DNA of 27,382 nt. It comes from a virus. The stretch covers positions 1 to 27,382 of IMG/VR virus record IMGVR_UViG_3300027687_000060; one strand, given 5' to 3'. The notes beneath the pieces are model-generated. The model did not search any database and was not told the origin of the DNA. It worked only from the letters and a program-made list of their open reading frames with translations. Of the stretch, positions 8,500 through 14,122 are shown piece by piece (the stretch's first letter is position 1; each line of letters opens with the position of its first letter). The position numbers and the translations under genes were made by a program.

Positions 8500-8565
8500 T
8501 TATTTCTTTGGTGGTTTCTTGTTTCTTGTCTTACGCATGTTCCGCACTGGTAGTTCTCTTAACAT
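8500..8565 (-). CDS. Very short basic peptide, translationally coupled
   Basis: A 21-codon frame encoding MLRELPVRNMRKTRNKKPPKK. Its ATG overlaps the stop of the upstream membrane protein (TAATG at 8563-8567) and it ends 11 nt before the next gene. Ten of 21 residues are Lys or Arg, with no hydrophobic stretch. Either a real coupled micropeptide that binds nucleic acid or acidic partners, or a reinitiation spacer that carries ribosomes to the next start. No homologue is known to me. Confidence 0.4.
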   Translation of the reverse strand: MLRELPVRNMRKTRNKKPPKK

Positions 8566-9008
8566 TAGAATTGTCCTTTAGTGTAAATAGCCCATAGGAG
8601 ACCACCAATAGCGAATAGGCCGGTGGACACAAGTATAATAACCAACACGGTATTAACAACATTGGCTATCCTTTCTTTTGTCTTTAATCGTTTTCGTAAT
8701 TCAGCAGCGGCAACTTCATCTCTTTTCCTACGAGCTTCCACTTGAAACTGTAACCAATCATCCCAAAGACCTGCTCTACCTTGATATATAAACATCTCTT
8801 GAATAGCAGCCTCATGTTGCTTGATTTGTTCAAGAGCAAAGAAAGCCTCAGAGTCTGATCCCGACTGGTTAGCCTTCTTTGACAACTCCGACTTAGAGTC
8901 AAAGAACTTAAAGATATGTGAACCCGCTGCCATTATATCGCCGCCGTTGGCTATTGTTTCTTTAATAACACCAAAGGCAGCGTTGGCTATAGCGAGTTCA
9001 GCAATCAT
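8565..9008 (-). CDS. C-terminally anchored membrane protein of the fibre/lysis region
   Basis: 147 residues. The N-terminal part is helical (MIAELAIANAAFGVIKETIA), then a charged coiled region (about 55-112, e.g. VEARRKRDEVAAAELRKRLK), then one long hydrophobic segment at about 117-141 (NVVNTVLVIILVSTGLFAIG) and a short tail. The start overlaps the end of the holin-like gene by 4 nt. Proteins of this plan are frequent in marine podoviruses next to fibre genes, but I know no proven role. Possibilities are a lysis accessory protein or a virion membrane protein; the evidence does not choose. Confidence 0.65.
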   Translation of the reverse strand: MIAELAIANAAFGVIKETIANGGDIMAAGSHIFKFFDSKSELSKKANQSGSDSEAFFALEQIKQHEAAIQEMFIYQGRAGLWDDWLQFQVEARRKRDEVAAAELRKRLKTKERIANVVNTVLVIILVSTGLFAIGGLLWAIYTKGQF

Positions 9009-9208
9009 TTAATAATCCAATTCATAACTAATGTTAACGCACCACCTAAGACGGCAGCTATAGTCATCCCCATCCAGAAGCCACCTTTAGACTGATTAGC
9101 TAAGGCCAACAATTCTTTTAGGTCAGATTCCATACTCTCAACTTTACAAGTTAGGTTATCTACTTGGGCAATAAGTTTTCCATATTCAATTGGGTCTATA
9201 GAGTTCAT
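9005..9208 (-). CDS. Holin-like small membrane protein (coiled coil + one TM)
   Basis: 67 residues: an N-terminal amphipathic or coiled-coil part (LIAQVDNLTCKVESMESDLK, about 12-31), then a hydrophobic helix (about 44-65, FWMGMTIAAVLGGALTLVMN) and a charged end (WIIK). This is the arrangement of XhlA-type and related small phage holins or holin-associated proteins. It sits after the tip/chaperone modules and before another membrane protein, with ATGA-type couplings on both sides. A second, 3-TM-type holin-like protein is encoded at 19699-20088, so this one may be an accessory or antiholin (inference). Confidence 0.55.
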   Translation of the reverse strand: MNSIDPIEYGKLIAQVDNLTCKVESMESDLKELLALANQSKGGFWMGMTIAAVLGGALTLVMNWIIK

Positions 9209-9267
9209 ACATTAGCAGGCTCTGGTGTATTACCCTCTACCAGCCACTCAAGGTAGTCCTGTGTCAT
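9205..9267 (-). CDS. 20-residue coupled micropeptide between chaperone and holin-like gene
   Basis: Frame encoding MTQDYLEWLVEGNTPEPANV. Its ATG overlaps the upstream stop (ATGA at 9264-9267) and its TGA overlaps the next ATG (9205-9208). It exactly fills the gap between two genes in a coupled chain, which argues for translation. It is acidic, has an N-terminal amphipathic stretch and a Pro-rich end, and no membrane segment. It may only relay ribosomes; function unknown. Confidence 0.45.
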   Translation of the reverse strand: MTQDYLEWLVEGNTPEPANV

Positions 9268-9524
9268 TTTGGGTACTCCGCTTTCACTGCTAAACAAGCA
9301 TCAACATACGCTTGAACTTGTACAGCATCACCCTTCACCACACCGTCTAAGTAGTCGGTAACGGGTGGGTAAGCAACGGCTCGTAACTCTTGGTAGGTTG
9401 GCGCTACAACTGGTACAGCAACAACCTCGACTGCTGCCATGCCCTTTGTCCACTCAGGCAATTCACTTACACCATCCCATTCAAATTGGTAGTAGCCATC
9501 ATTATTATCTTTAAATGCAATCAT
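9264..9524 (-). CDS. Tip-associated small protein / fibre chaperone, module C
   Basis: 86 residues. An N-terminal region (MIAFKDNNDGYYQFEWDG) precedes the C-terminal block shared with two other genes here: TYQELRAVAYPPVTDYLDGV, then KGDAVQVQAYVDACLAVKAEYPK (two parts of one stretch). The pattern R-x-x-x-YP-x-x-x-D-x-LD ... AVKxxYPK is common in small genes directly behind phage fibre genes and is usually taken to be a fibre assembly or tip protein. Start by TAATG overlap with the tip protein gene, so a 1:1 coupled pair is likely. The role is inferred from context. Confidence 0.65.
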   Translation of the reverse strand: MIAFKDNNDGYYQFEWDGVSELPEWTKGMAAVEVVAVPVVAPTYQELRAVAYPPVTDYLDGVVKGDAVQVQAYVDACLAVKAEYPK

Positions 9525-10087
9525 TATGCAACCCTCGCTATCGTGAAAAGACTAGCCCTACCGCCGGTGGCTGCTCCACCGTCAGTGTGTGCTCTAACAA
9601 CCCCTGTTGCCGCTATATATACGGTAACGGAGCAGACAGTAAGATAACCATTTACCGCAGAAGTAGCAGCAGCAATTTTGTCAGCTAGAGTAATACTGTA
9701 TATGCTGGTAGTAAGTTGAGTTGAGTTTAAGGATACACCAAAATCTCCTGCTGCGTTTGGTGCTTCAGCAAAATGTATTGAATATACCCCATTTGTGTTT
9801 ATGGTAAATGACCCACCAAGTGTTGCACTATCAGCATAAGTAATATCAACACCTTGATTTTCTAAAACATTAGTAAATCTACGAATTTTGGTGTTAGTTG
9901 AGCCGTAACCATTTGCAGTGTTCAGGCGTACATAGCTTAGGCTTTGTGCTAAAGCAATTGTCCCAGTCTCGTCAGGCATTGTTAATGTTCTATTTGTATT
10001 AGTCGCAGGAGGAATAACAGTAATGATGCCCGTTCCAGATTGCGACAGCATCTCTAGCTGACTGACTCCAAGTATTCCATTAGCCAT
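9524..10087 (-). CDS. Tail fibre tip / receptor-binding protein, module C
   Basis: 187 residues. A short connector (ITVIPPATNTNRTLTMPDET) matches the connector of the 178-residue tip protein upstream. It is followed by a beta-rich domain with the pattern YVRLNTANGYGSTNTKIRRF ... GVYSIHF, which I recognise from many phage-encoded tip domains with a C1q/TNF-like jelly roll feel. The C-terminus is ASLFTIARVA. It is preceded by a strong AAGGAGG site and coupled (TAATG) to the upstream chaperone. Connector plus distal domain suggests an interchangeable tip. Confidence 0.7.
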   Translation of the reverse strand: MANGILGVSQLEMLSQSGTGIITVIPPATNTNRTLTMPDETGTIALAQSLSYVRLNTANGYGSTNTKIRRFTNVLENQGVDITYADSATLGGSFTINTNGVYSIHFAEAPNAAGDFGVSLNSTQLTTSIYSITLADKIAAATSAVNGYLTVCSVTVYIAATGVVRAHTDGGAATGGRASLFTIARVA

Positions 10088-10353
10088 TATTCGCCTCCTT
10101 TAGGGAATTCTTGTTTCACTGCTGTAATTGTCAACTTCCAAGCATCAACGCCACCGTGGTAGATTAAATCTAGCTGGTCGGGAATGGATGGGTAGGCTGC
10201 GGCTCGTTGGGTCTTGTATGCGTTAGCGGCAACCAAGGCTTCAGCGGCAGCAAGGTCATAAGACACTACTTGCTCATTGGCATCGTAAGCAACACCACCA
10301 CGCATTGTTACGATAGCTGGGTTTAATTTGTAAATTGCTTCAATTAAGTTCAT
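10087..10353 (-). CDS. Tip-associated small protein / fibre chaperone, module B
   Basis: 88 residues, starting MNLIEAIYKLNPAIVTMRGG. A longer frame exists (start 10383), but it would overlap the tip gene by 34 nt. The ATG at 10351-10353 overlaps the upstream stop by ATGA and has GGAG at good spacing, so I chose it. The C-terminal block (AYKTQRAAAYPSIPDQLDLI ... AVKQEFPKGGE) is homologous to the 86- and 78-residue proteins beside it. It is probably the partner of the preceding tip protein. Confidence 0.7.
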   Translation of the reverse strand: MNLIEAIYKLNPAIVTMRGGVAYDANEQVVSYDLAAAEALVAANAYKTQRAAAYPSIPDQLDLIYHGGVDAWKLTITAVKQEFPKGGE

Positions 10354-10886
10354 GCTGCAATCTCCATAAGTGTTAGTGTGCAAATTGCTGCGTCAACTTC
10401 AAATGTTGATGTGCCGCTGCTAGTTCTTAAATACAATGTATAAGCTGTTGCTGATGTTGTCGCTGGGGCATCATATGCGCTTATTGAAATTGGAAAGTCA
10501 GTAGAGCCTCCGGCGCTATAAACCTGATATAACCCACGGGTAGCATTTCCAATGTTTGTAGCATCTCTATAAATAGTTAAGTACGCCTGATTAGTTGTGC
10601 TAGTCCTTAATACACCACCAGCAACAATTATAAAAATCTTGCTTGTTGCACTTGTTGGGGTTATTGAGGCACTAAATGAAGTAGTAACAAAAGAAGTGCT
10701 TGTTGTTGGCACGCTGGTGGTGGTATTAGCACTCACCACCTGCAACACATTACCAGCACGACTAAGCGTATCAATCGTCCCAGCCTCGTCAGGCAAAGTC
10801 AATGTCCTATTTGTACTGGTGGCTGGCGCTTCAAGGGTGAATGTTCCACTCCCTGTAGCCGCACCCTTAATTGCTATATTACTCAT
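10350..10886 (-). CDS. Tail fibre tip / receptor-binding protein, module B
   Basis: 178 residues. Connector FTLEAPATSTNRTLTLPDEA near the N-terminus, similar at DNA level to module C. It is followed by a Ser/Thr-rich beta domain (SFSASITPTSATSKIFIIVA; then ISISAYDAPATTSATAYTLY) that resembles a frequent phage tip domain ending in a strand TLTLMEIAA. Preceded by AAGGAG, with an ATGA overlap with the upstream chaperone. Its distal domain is unrelated in sequence to those of modules A and C. Confidence 0.7.
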   Translation of the reverse strand: MSNIAIKGAATGSGTFTLEAPATSTNRTLTLPDEAGTIDTLSRAGNVLQVVSANTTTSVPTTSTSFVTTSFSASITPTSATSKIFIIVAGGVLRTSTTNQAYLTIYRDATNIGNATRGLYQVYSAGGSTDFPISISAYDAPATTSATAYTLYLRTSSGTSTFEVDAAICTLTLMEIAA

Positions 10887-11119
10887 TTGGTCTCCTTCGG
10901 ATATTTGTCTTTGACTGCTTGAATAACCGCTGCCATTTCAGCAGGGAAAACACCAGCATGGAACAATGCGTCTAATTGGTCGCCAATGCTTGGATACTCT
11001 GGGACACGTTGTTCTTGATAAGTGGGTATAACAGGTTTAGGCAGCGCAGCAATCTCGGCTGCTGTTAGGTCAATTGTTGTTTGTACACCGGTTTGTACAT
11101 TAATTTCAATTCTTTGCAT
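10883..11119 (-). CDS. Tip-associated small protein / fibre chaperone, module A
   Basis: 78 residues. An N-terminal strand region (MQRIEINVQTGVQTTIDLTA) then the shared block TYQEQRVPEYPSIGDQLDAL ... AVKDKYPKETK. It lies 9 nt after the 184-residue tip protein with AAGGA as ribosome site. It is the first of three copies of this small family in the cluster. The N-terminal parts differ between copies, while the C-terminal blocks are conserved. Confidence 0.7.
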   Translation of the reverse strand: MQRIEINVQTGVQTTIDLTAAEIAALPKPVIPTYQEQRVPEYPSIGDQLDALFHAGVFPAEMAAVIQAVKDKYPKETK

Positions 11120-11128
11120 TGGGTGTCC

Positions 11129-11683
11129 TTATTCGTACATGATGTTAATAGAGCCAGCATCAAACGTATCTGTGCCGTTGACGGTAGTAATGCGAACTCG
11201 GTCTAATGTGCCGCTTAAAGTAACAGCTCCGGCAGTAGGCATAGTCCCAATTGCAGTATCTATTGCCGAAACACCAGAAGCAACCCATACATTTGATCCA
11301 AGCGTTGTAATTGTCAACCCACCACTGATGACCGTAGCTGCACCCAAGTTGCTATACACACCAAACCCAGTAGTAAGGTTTGTAGTGGCAACCCCTGTTG
11401 TAACTACTGATGCAGAACCCGTGTATCCAGATGTTGTAGGGCTACCTGCGCCTATTTGAACCAAGTAATGGCTACTTCCATTAGTAGATACACCACGAAA
11501 CATCACAGTAATCTTCTTAACCCAACTAGGTATTCCAGTAAAGTCAATTGCTGTTCCAGATGTAGAAGCAACCGCAGTACCGGATGTTAACGGGTATAGG
11601 ACTGCACCATTTGTTTCTATGTAATCAGTTGACGTTAAGTCGGGGGTTGTAATCCCTGTCGTTCCATTTAATATAATACTCAT
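11129..11683 (-). CDS. Tail fibre tip / receptor-binding protein, module A
   Basis: 184 residues. N-terminus MSIILNGTTGITTPDLTST, a common fibre connector, then a beta-rich domain with the widespread phage tip pattern IDFTGIPSWVKKITVMFRGV followed by STNGSSHYLVQIGAG, ending GTLDRVRITTVNGTDTFDAG and SINIMYE. I recognise this domain from the distal ends of many tail fibres in environmental phages. It lies 9 nt downstream of the Mtd-N-like gene. Encoded separately here, it presumably assembles onto the fibre as a tip (inference). Confidence 0.75.
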   Translation of the reverse strand: MSIILNGTTGITTPDLTSTDYIETNGAVLYPLTSGTAVASTSGTAIDFTGIPSWVKKITVMFRGVSTNGSSHYLVQIGAGSPTTSGYTGSASVVTTGVATTNLTTGFGVYSNLGAATVISGGLTITTLGSNVWVASGVSAIDTAIGTMPTAGAVTLSGTLDRVRITTVNGTDTFDAGSINIMYE

Positions 11684-11692
11684 GTTCTTTCC

Positions 11693-12010
11693 TTAAAGTA
11701 TAACTAAGCGAGAGCCAGTAGGAACGGTAACAGTGATGCCAGTGTTAATTGTCAGCGGCCCTGTTGTCATCGCATTCTTACCAGTGGTGAGGGTATAGTT
11801 GGCAGTTACGGTTGGTGTGTTCTCGTAAAATACATCGTCAACACCCGTACCAGTTGCACCGCCACCCACTTGAACCACAACACCCCCTGCGGTCTTTGTG
11901 TATAACTTACGGTCAGCAGTGTTGATTGCTAACTCAGCCGCCGTTAGGTCGCCAGTACCGGGAACAGCAGAGGCTGTTGAACTGTTTTTGAGAATAATTG
12001 TATTTGCCAT
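11693..12010 (-). CDS. Mtd N-terminal-like fibre protein
   Basis: 105 residues. The first half (MANTIILKNSSTASAVPGTG, DLTAAELAINTADRKLYTKT) matches the pattern of the N-terminal, virion-binding domain of the major tropism determinant and many other fibre proteins (LxxGELAINxADxKLYxK). The second half is a fibre end repeat (PTVTANYTLTTGKNAMTTGP ... VTVPTGSRLVIL). Its ATG overlaps the upstream fibre stop (TAATG), and its ribosome site lies inside the last codons of that gene. No C-type lectin variable region or template repeat is visible, so a diversity-generating system is not supported here. Confidence 0.7.
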   Translation of the reverse strand: MANTIILKNSSTASAVPGTGDLTAAELAINTADRKLYTKTAGGVVVQVGGGATGTGVDDVFYENTPTVTANYTLTTGKNAMTTGPLTINTGITVTVPTGSRLVIL

Positions 12011-12966
12011 TAATAAGTTCCTCCGTCAATGGTCGATGTGTTAATAAGTCCGTTAGTCACTGCAATAGGCCAAGTGCCGGTAGCGTTTGCCCCACCTACA
12101 TCTGCCTTAGTTGTTAAGTCCAGCACTGCCCATGAAGCAACAGTGCCATTAGTTGTCAGATACTCACCGCTATTTCCAGTTTGGTCAGGTAGAGCATCCA
12201 CTGCCGCCCATGAAGTAACAGTACCATTAGTTGTCAGAAACTCGCCACTGTTGCCTGTCTGAGCCGGTACAGCCACAAGAATAGCAGCCGATAAGTCAGC
12301 AGGTTGTGTAGCTGAGTCTGCCGTAGAGCCTTGAGCCGCCGTAGCGAAATAACCTACATCTTGAGCCGCTGCTGTGCCCACATCTGCCGCTTGGAGGGCT
12401 GAGTCTGCCAGTGTACCTTGAGCCGCTGTAGCATAGGCTGTAGCTGCTGTAGTAGCCGCTGTACCCAGTCCTAAGTTAGTACGGGCAGTTGCTGCATTGT
12501 CTAGGTCACTAAGGTTATTAACATTTATTAGAGCGCCTGACAAAGAAGCATATGCATCAAGCCAAGCAGAGCCACTCCACACCTTCATTAACTCATCTAC
12601 AGTGTCAAAGTATAAAGCACCAGTAATTAACGCATCACCGTCATTGTCCGTTGTAGGTGCTGTACCTTTAGCGCCTAAGTAACGGTCATCAAAGGAGTCG
12701 TAAGAGGCTGCGGATTCAGTGGCGCTATTAGCGGAAGCCGTGGCGCTGTTGCCTGAAGTTGTGGCACTGTTAGCTGATGCAGTGGCGCTGTTAGCTGATG
12801 CAGTTGCTCTGATGTTAGAGGTACTTGCACTGGTGGCTGAGTTTGAGGCGCTTAGAGCCGCTCCTGTGGCTGCATTGACTGCAATTACTGCTTGGGCGGT
12901 GACAGCAGTTACAGTTGCATCTGTGTTACTATCTCCTGCGCCGCCTATGCCTCTGTATATTGCCAT
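12010..12966 (-). CDS. Long tail fibre, Ala/Ser heptad shaft
   Basis: 318 residues. N-terminus MAIYRGIGGAGDSNTDATVT is a frequent attachment sequence of podovirus fibres. A shaft follows of 7-residue repeats (SATASAN and variants, about 54-88), then a linker domain (ALYFDTVDELMKVWSGSAWL), Ala-rich repeats (YATAAQGTLADSA) and two 26-residue repeats (QTGNSGEFLTTNGTVTSWAA / QTGNSGEYLTTNGTVASWAV). It ends TIDGGTY. There is no enzymatic or large receptor-binding domain, so the binding tips are probably the small proteins encoded downstream (inference). AAAGGA precedes the start. Confidence 0.8.
   Translation of the reverse strand: MAIYRGIGGAGDSNTDATVTAVTAQAVIAVNAATGAALSASNSATSASTSNIRATASANSATASANSATTSGNSATASANSATESAASYDSFDDRYLGAKGTAPTTDNDGDALITGALYFDTVDELMKVWSGSAWLDAYASLSGALINVNNLSDLDNAATARTNLGLGTAATTAATAYATAAQGTLADSALQAADVGTAAAQDVGYFATAAQGSTADSATQPADLSAAILVAVPAQTGNSGEFLTTNGTVTSWAAVDALPDQTGNSGEYLTTNGTVASWAVLDLTTKADVGGANATGTWPIAVTNGLINTSTIDGGTY
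12129..12270 (-). repeat. 78-bp tandem repeat in the fibre gene
   Basis: Two copies with a period of 78 bp (anchor CCCATGAAG at 12129 and 12207) encode two 26-residue fibre repeats. Differences are mostly at third codon positions, indicating selection on the protein. Confidence 0.75.
12719..12844 (-). repeat. 21-bp tandem repeats coding the fibre shaft
   Basis: About six degenerate 21-bp units (units begin at 12719, 12740, 12761, 12782, 12803, 12824); those at 12761 and 12782 differ at one base. They encode the SATASAN heptads. Such repeats allow length change of the shaft by slippage. Confidence 0.8.
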
Positions 12967-12967
12967 A

Positions 12968-13117
12968 TCATTCCTTTGTTGGTTTCTTAACTACAGGTGT
13001 CTTTTCTTTAGGTTTTATTACTTCTACAAAGTCAGGGTGTTCTCTCATCTGCTTAATATCATAATCTAAAGTAAAGGTAACAATAGAACCACCTTGTTTA
13101 CATACAAATTCAACCAT
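12968..13117 (-). CDS. Small protein between capsid and fibre genes
   Basis: 49 residues from the ATG at 13115-13117, which has AAGGAG at 6-nt spacing. A longer frame starting at 13168 has no ribosome site and would begin inside the post-capsid hairpin region, so I reject that start. The N-terminal half is beta-like (MVEFVCKQGGSIVTFTLDYD), then EHPDFVEVIKP and a Lys/Pro tail (KEKTPVVKKPTKE). A similar small protein beside capsid genes in other phages suggests a head-associated protein, but no function is established. Confidence 0.6.
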   Translation of the reverse strand: MVEFVCKQGGSIVTFTLDYDIKQMREHPDFVEVIKPKEKTPVVKKPTKE

Positions 13118-13172
13118 ATATTCTCCTTGTTTGTAGAATTCACTCTTGTAAATAAACTCTACAAACATGAAA

Positions 13173-13194
13173 GGGGACTCCCTAAAGAGTCCCC
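13173..13194 (-). terminator. Weak terminator hairpin behind the capsid gene
   Basis: An 8-bp perfect stem (GGGGACTC 13173-13180 with GAGTCCCC 13187-13194) with a 6-nt loop. On the minus strand it is followed by only TTTC, so read-through is expected. It lies 10 nt after the capsid stop, as the partial terminator behind T7 gene 10 does. It probably lowers fibre and tail expression relative to capsid (inference). Confidence 0.7.
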
Positions 13195-13204
13195 AGTCTA
13201 GCTA

Positions 13205-14122
13205 TTAACCAAGCATTGCGAAAGCAACACCAGCGTCATCACGCAACTCTTTAACACCGTACAACGTGTCAGCAGTGTACAATGTAGCCAAGTAGTCTTG
13301 CTTGTACTGAGTTTGTGAGCGAACGCCCATCTGCTCTGCAAAAACAAACGCTTCTTTGTGGAACATCAAACCAATGCGGTCAGTTGCAGTAGAAGGAGTA
13401 GCAGCGTTGGTAGACACGTAAACCATCATGCCATATACATCGCCAATGCGACCGTTATGGATAGTGTTACCTGAACCAATATCACCAACAAAAGACTGCT
13501 CAGTGAAACGGGCAATACCCATCATCACGTTACGGCCTACAGGTGGCAACACAATTGAGCGACCGTCCATTGGCACATCAGCATCGTCCAAAGTCTGAAT
13601 CATCTTGCGAATACCAGCGTCAGTCAATGCAGTACCAGCAGTAGTACCAGCAACGTAAGGAGTAGTGCCATCACCAGCTAACACTGCTTTGTTGTAAGCA
13701 GTAGTGCCTGAACCACCTTGTAGGCCAGAGCCTAATTCGATGATAGAGGTGTCAACTTGCTTACCTAAAGCGTAGCCAGCGTCAGAAGTGTAGAAACGGC
13801 GCATAGATGACAAGGCTTGAACTTCAGCAATGTCTTCAATGAAGCGTGAGTATTCAAAGTGTTGGTTAACAATAACTTGAACTTCAGTCTCAGTAGCAGC
13901 AATCAAAGTAACAGCGGTAGAAGCAGCTTTAGCAGAAGCAGCACCACGAGTTGGCTTTGGAATGTGCAATGTGTCGCCCTTTTTGCCCTTGAAGGACATC
14001 TTGGAGACAAGGTTAGCCATAACTAGGTTTTGCTTGTAAGCGGCAATAACTTCGTCAGACCAGATTTCAGGGATAAATACAGCACCAGTTGCTTTGGTGA
14101 CTTGGGGGGTAGGATAGGCCAT
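13205..14122 (-). CDS. Major capsid protein
   Basis: 305 residues, starting MAYPTPQVTKATGAVFIPEI. The motif IPEIWSDEVIAAYKQNLVMA followed by NLVSKMSFKGKKGDTLHIPK is typical of phage coat proteins of the HK97-fold class. The protein continues with helix and P-domain-like parts (IVNQHFEYSRFIEDIAEVQA) and ends ELRDDAGVAFAMLG. It directly follows the scaffold gene and precedes the fibre genes. AAAAGGA precedes ATG, and many codons are the same favoured ones, fitting high expression. The weak hairpin just downstream fits the usual capsid position. Confidence 0.92.
   Translation of the reverse strand: MAYPTPQVTKATGAVFIPEIWSDEVIAAYKQNLVMANLVSKMSFKGKKGDTLHIPKPTRGAASAKAASTAVTLIAATETEVQVIVNQHFEYSRFIEDIAEVQALSSMRRFYTSDAGYALGKQVDTSIIELGSGLQGGSGTTAYNKAVLAGDGTTPYVAGTTAGTALTDAGIRKMIQTLDDADVPMDGRSIVLPPVGRNVMMGIARFTEQSFVGDIGSGNTIHNGRIGDVYGMMVYVSTNAATPSTATDRIGLMFHKEAFVFAEQMGVRSQTQYKQDYLATLYTADTLYGVKELRDDAGVAFAMLG

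Follow-up and report, generated by a model that had tools for sequence, protein, structure and literature searches.

What does a virus gain from three tip genes, each followed by a small gene, behind a single fibre shaft, and, if these tips are exchangeable cassettes, what is the unit that moves? We examined this arrangement in a virus record of 27,382 bases (the window, meaning this whole stretch of DNA), an aquatic/environmental, podovirus-like contig. Its minus strand carries terminase, portal, scaffold and major capsid protein genes in a podovirus-like order and then the fibre genes, and a primase/helicase is encoded on the plus strand. A preliminary description had placed three pairs of tip and small partner behind the shaft, between 9264 and 11683 on the minus strand, and all six ORFs are present. 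The region reads as follows.

12968 to 14122, minus strand: fixed upstream flank, a 66-aa gene and the major capsid protein gene (phrog_267, major head protein, E = 2e-51)
12010 to 12966, minus strand: fibre shaft gene, 318 aa, matching PHROG tail fibre families (e.g., phrog_38058, E = 5e-28)
11693 to 12010, minus strand: "neck" gene, 105 aa, with C-terminal end TVTVPTGSRLVIL and PHROG tail fibre matches
11129 to 11683, minus strand: tip1, 184 aa, with an ILNGTTGITTP connector and a distal domain from about residue 35
10883 to 11119, minus strand: chap1, 78 aa, with a class-A N-half (MQRIEINVxTG) and a YPS C-half
10752 to 10895, minus strand: conserved joint, made up of the chap1 end plus the tip2 connector and showing 89% DNA identity to the sister contig L086
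10350 to 10886, minus strand: tip2, 178 aa, with a TNRTLTLPDE connector (residues 1 to 45) and a predicted TNF-like jelly-roll distal domain (47 to 176)
10087 to 10353, minus strand: chap2, 88 aa counted from ATG (the mechanical ORF has 98 aa from TTG), with a class-B N-half and a YPS C-half
9524 to 10087, minus strand: tip3, 187 aa, with a TNRTLTMPDE connector and a distal domain from about residue 49
9264 to 9524, minus strand: chap3, 86 aa, with a class-C N-half (KDxxxGYY) and a DYLDGVVKGD-type C-half
8565 to 9208, minus strand: fixed downstream flank, a 67-aa gene and a 147-aa gene, with homology to L086 back from 9255

Coupling by ATGA or TAATG overlaps or a short gap is seen at all five junctions, as had been described: tip1 and chap1 are 9 bases apart, chap1/tip2 and tip2/chap2 overlap by 4 bases (ATGA), and chap2/tip3 and tip3/chap3 overlap by 1 base (TAATG). 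Across the window and related loci, the partner gene lies directly downstream of its tip, mostly with an overlap of 1 to 4 bases or within about 10 bases. The TVTVPTGSRLVIL-type C-terminal motif of the neck gene also closes most genes upstream of tip1-type connectors in related loci. The 67-aa and 147-aa genes have hydrophobic C-terminal stretches and are the array's most constant flank. Relatives of the major capsid protein in genome_contigs were confined to two MAG contigs.

The distal domains of the three tips are indeed different, each retrieving a separate set of homologues, and the connector PATxTNRTLTxPDExGT, thought to be shared by two tips, is exact in tip2 (PATSTNRTLTLPDEAGT) and tip3 (PATNTNRTLTMPDETGT). 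The tip1 distal domain was recovered from roughly 600 viral loci or more, and some cultured phages have tip1-type domains annotated as "tail fiber" or "major tropism determinant". Tip1-type connectors, tip2-type connectors, other leaders and the C-terminal end of long shafts can all carry a distal domain; the distal domain of tip3, for example, ends a 515-aa shaft in contig L062. A fixed order of connector slots was rejected, with tip1-type preceding tip2-type in 16 of 23 loci and the reverse in 7; loci with the window's flanks keep the window's order in the cases seen. In loci L244 to L323 (e.g., L252, L247 and L266), tip1-type distal domains often stand head-to-tail without a partner gene of the types recognised here between them.

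For tip2, an AF2 model (pLDDT 85.8, pTM 0.80) comprises an extended N-terminal stretch of 46 residues followed by an all-beta domain, and a Foldseek search of the PDB with this predicted monomer identified the latter as a TNF-like jelly-roll at 12 to 15% sequence identity. Among its best matches are two TNF-like lectins, PLTL (9ib7) and BC2L-C (2wq4), along with the C-terminal domain of Chlamydia Pgp3 and the binding domain from the short tail fibre of cyanophage A-1(L) (8ke9). TM scores (target) were 0.72 to 0.76 for 9ib6, 9ib7 and 9ib9 (E = 4e-5 to 1e-4) and about 0.7 for 2wq4. The tip2 distal domain is thus predicted from the model to have a TNF-like lectin fold; it may bind glycans. A resemblance of tip1 to Q-beta coat protein was dismissed, as the PDB match in question (E = 1e-4) rested on a pair of weak repeats within a fusion construct.

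The small partners are homologous to one another, as proposed: a search of the contig with chap1 retrieved both other partners (E = 8e-9 and 1e-7), and a profile of 42 C-terminal residues scored the three at E = 1e-25, 7e-22 and 5e-19. The conserved end YPSxxDQLD ... AVKxxYPK is present but looser than first described, with YPPVTDYLD in chap3 and AVKQEFPK at the end of chap2. Among the first loci, this 42-residue domain (YxxxRAxxYPSIxDQLD...AVKxxYPK) occurs in 166 ORFs, nearly always at the very C-terminus. The N-half that precedes it is variable, but it sorts into classes that match the preceding tip: class A (RIEINVxTG) follows tip1-type distal domains, class B (AIYxLYPxVVT...DANGN or SLRPxAEW) follows tip2-type domains and class C (FKDxxDGFY) follows tip3-type domains, in L062 too. 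On the same N-half, at least three other unrelated C-halves can replace the YPS C-half, among them the Pfam "Phage tail assembly chaperone" PF16778 (L481, E = 7e-14); class-A N-halves usually carry a C-half other than YPS, namely a KLAAAGLTxxEL end, a coiled-coil-like end, DPLFFKxQRGE...RARFP or PF16778. Descent of the YPS and PF16778 C-halves from one ancestor was considered and found no support (hhalign probability 0.1).

Database searches with these proteins gave little by name. In Pfam, none of the eight proteins scored above the cut-off, and the partners had no match to Tfa, Caudo_TAP (PF02413), DUF4376 or PF16778; in PHROG, the partners matched only families of unknown function (9114, 2687 and 1787); and a sequence search of the PDB gave no convincing match for the partners, tip1, tip2 or tip3. 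The closest worked-out analogue is the pair gp24/gp25 of cyanophage Pam3, in which the variable N-domain of gp25 binds the TNF-like fibre gp24 and the conserved helical C-domain trimerises (PMC9608196, PDB 7YPX). Pam3 resembles the window, with its predicted TNF-like tip2 and putative chaperones, in having a TNF-like fibre whose next gene encodes a chaperone with a variable N-domain and a conserved helical C-domain, and the small partners share with Pam3 gp25 and Tfa-like chaperones a fibre-specific variable N-domain joined to a conserved C-domain. The AF2 model of chap2 (mean pLDDT 94.8) has a small alpha/beta N-half and C-terminal helices at 45 to 53 and 57 to 82, the helical C-domain expected of such chaperones. 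However, Pam3 has one pair and no array, its gp25 is 162 aa long with a C-domain of about 100 aa, and the chap2 model matched no solved structure in Foldseek (no PDB match at E < 1, Mu Tfa and the gp25 fold included), its matches among viral models being only unnamed or uncharacterised phage proteins.

We then asked how tightly each half of the partner is tied to the tip, using distal-domain families drawn only from the tips. An N-half had its nearest neighbour behind the same distal family in 105 of 109 cases, compared to 50 on permutation, and in 97 of 109 after exclusion of similar tips; for the C-half the figures were 74 of 109 (highest permutation 63) and 67 of 109, all of these being locus counts that do not represent independent events, because loci were de-duplicated by exact sequence only. 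Within the tip2 family, the distal domain correlated with the N-half (rho 0.30, reached in 0 of 500 permutations), while the correlation of distal domain with C-half was 0.10 (62 of 500) and that of N-half with C-half 0.01. Scanning the viral collection with an N-half alone, we found a tip2-type upstream gene at all 75 class-B loci with an upstream gene and a tip1-type gene at all 64 such class-A loci. In the other direction, 24 of 26 tip2-type domains have the matching partner, a count that takes in two YPS partners with another N-half and, in addition, one divergent member judged by eye. A class-A partner is not always needed by the tip1 distal domain, as only 39 of 123 tip1-type domains have one. 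Pairing therefore appears to reside in the variable N-half and not in the conserved end; judged from these comparisons, linkage of the C-half to the tip is weak, yet not zero, so that this half varies for the most part independently of the tip. Adjacent genes are inherited together and the loci are not phylogenetically independent, so that co-variation of tip and N-half might reflect nothing but a shared neighbourhood, with no physical pairing. This is highly improbable: the C-half of the same gene acts as a built-in control, with little linkage to the tip, and the N-half tracks its tip across many contigs and, in contig L087, into another slot.

Comparison of related genomes revealed the shuffling of modules that had been suggested, as sisters with matching flanks differ in their tips, with slots gained, lost or replaced. 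Three sister phages have flanks in common with the window but different tips, and this difference in tips despite shared flanks is why we regard the array as exchanging. In L086, the major capsid protein is 95% and the 147-aa gene 99% identical to that of the window, while DNA homology is lost at about codon 18 of tip1 and returns 9 bases past chap3 (9255); between these points lies a 144-base island of homology over the conserved joint, and the neighbouring cores have no detectable homology. L022 and L023, more distant relatives with the same flanks, have two tip-chaperone pairs and then a protein of about 350 aa, and many further layouts occur in other relatives.

In L087, slot 2 holds the core of the window's slot 1. 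Its distal domain is 75% identical in DNA to that of tip1 as against 47% to tip2, its connector is of tip2 type (61% vs 45%), and the chaperone that follows is chimeric at the expected joint, with an N-half like that of chap1 (69% vs 44%) and a C-half like that of chap2 (73% vs 56%). L329 has the C-half types in the order of the window's slots 1 to 3, with different N-halves and tips in slots 1 and 3. Within the window itself, the chap1 C-half plus tip2 connector resembles the chap2 C-half plus tip3 connector (62.5% over 264 bases). The two conserved stretches singled out in the preliminary description, YPS motif and TNRTLT connector, act as joints and are left behind during exchange.

These results bear on the cassette array of the preliminary description in two ways. 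The idea of tips that can be exchanged and that each have a dedicated partner held up, and neither of the findings that were to count against the idea, an array of fixed form and a lack of specific pairing, was made: sisters' tips differ and the partner-tip linkage is strong. The gene pair as the unit of exchange was ruled out, because the C-halves do not follow the tips.

The changing number of slots among sisters, together with relatives such as the more distant L009, in which one long fibre and one chaperone occupy the array space between the same flanks, would also suit a virus that uses one tip per particle and keeps the others as spare or decaying cassettes awaiting recombination. That seems unlikely, as all six ORFs are intact and tightly coupled, a second contig (L084) retains all six in an array 99.97% identical in DNA to that of the window, and arrays recur, with two or more modules in 42 of 170 non-redundant YPS-chaperone loci.

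Taken together, the data support a model, which we consider likely to be correct, of a multi-slot receptor-binding array with dedicated intermolecular tail-fibre chaperones, in which the distal domain and the chaperone N-half are exchanged as a core. Each tip gene product would be a short fibre-tip protein with a slot connector at its N-terminus and, at its C-terminus, a distal domain that binds the receptor and is presumably trimeric in the case of tip2; the tips would be carried on the virion. The small gene after each tip would encode that tip's intermolecular chaperone, whose N-half would bind its own tip's distal domain and whose helical C-half would be generic, with a probable role in trimerisation or capping. 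Tips may be changed by recombination within the conserved joints (chaperone C-half plus next connector), for which homologous recombination is a plausible route; distal domain and N-half would therefore travel together as one piece, splitting both genes, and the core could enter another slot or join a long shaft.

Rather than act as transient assembly chaperones, the small partners might remain in the virion itself, as part of the receptor-binding tip, with the N-half as adaptor and the C-half exposed, as Tfa of Mu and Ur-lambda is present in mature phage (as cited in PMC9608196); variation of the C-half independently of the tip is what an exposed part might show. We find this improbable, since Pam3 gp25 went undetected in virions (PMC9608196) and the few C-half types recur across phages without linkage to tips, as would be expected of a generic part more than of a receptor-facing one.

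The organisation that we favour resembles that of Pam3 gp24/gp25 and of the cultured Lentibacter phage ICBM2 (Cobavirinae, MF431616), and the evidence for a two-part chaperone code is unusually clear here. ICBM2 likewise has three consecutive pairs of fibre and tail assembly chaperone, its first tip with a tip1-like connector and its second with a TNRTLTLPD connector, but its chaperone C-half is PF16778 rather than YPSxxDQLD and its distal domains are others. Excerpts of the published account call this region variable, count two tail fibres and three tail assembly chaperones in it, and note this variability rather than a two-part linkage (PMC6775973). In the Alteromonas phages A5 and V22, fibre-chaperone modules have been swapped between phages, and the beta-strands of the DUF4376 chaperone were suggested to co-evolve with the fibre head (PMC10579305, PMC7289586); unlike the window, these phages have a single pair, with longer chaperones and a different C-domain. 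Homologues of tip2/chap2 type are found in Methylophilales phage MEP301 (gp19/gp18) and Pelagibacter phage HTVC010P, where gp18 and the HTVC010P homologue are annotated as hypothetical; the three-slot array was not seen within the stretches compared.

Environmental sequence alone thus indicates that one chaperone half goes with the fibre and the other is an exchangeable plug-in, which gives an annotation rule for many "hypothetical" small phage genes and helps predict which helper each receptor-binding domain needs. It also suggests a way to change a tip without breaking assembly, by recombining the tip together with the matching chaperone half, and the seams that cut through genes show how such viruses may alter host recognition.

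The C-half types of the window's slots 1 to 3 are all different (HAGVFP, IYHxGxDAWK and VVKGD), raising the idea of an orthogonality code in which the N-half reads the tip and a different, non-mixing C-half in each slot lets three trimeric fibres assemble without cross-talk. We regard such a code as quite improbable. C-halves of the same cluster were found within one contig in 4 of 59 pairs, compared to 13.1 expected, a deficit reached in 0 of 3,000 permutations at two of four clustering cut-offs; with hand-made types the count was 7 against 11.6 expected (409 of 5,000), and the avoidance effect was gone once repeated array patterns were collapsed (hand count). The within-contig difference depends on how the types are drawn, and avoidance of DNA repeats would yield the same picture.

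The protein of about 350 aa in the last slot of relatives (L022:11108-12208, L023:11990-13033, L086:5494-6648 and L089:2010-3110) shares the stretch NR.INGDMRIDQRNAG and has no YPS chaperone gene behind it. At L005:10010-11701, two tip1-type tips follow one another, both with class-A partners, of which one has a C-half of the type TDWMVLRQ... and the other a YPS C-half.
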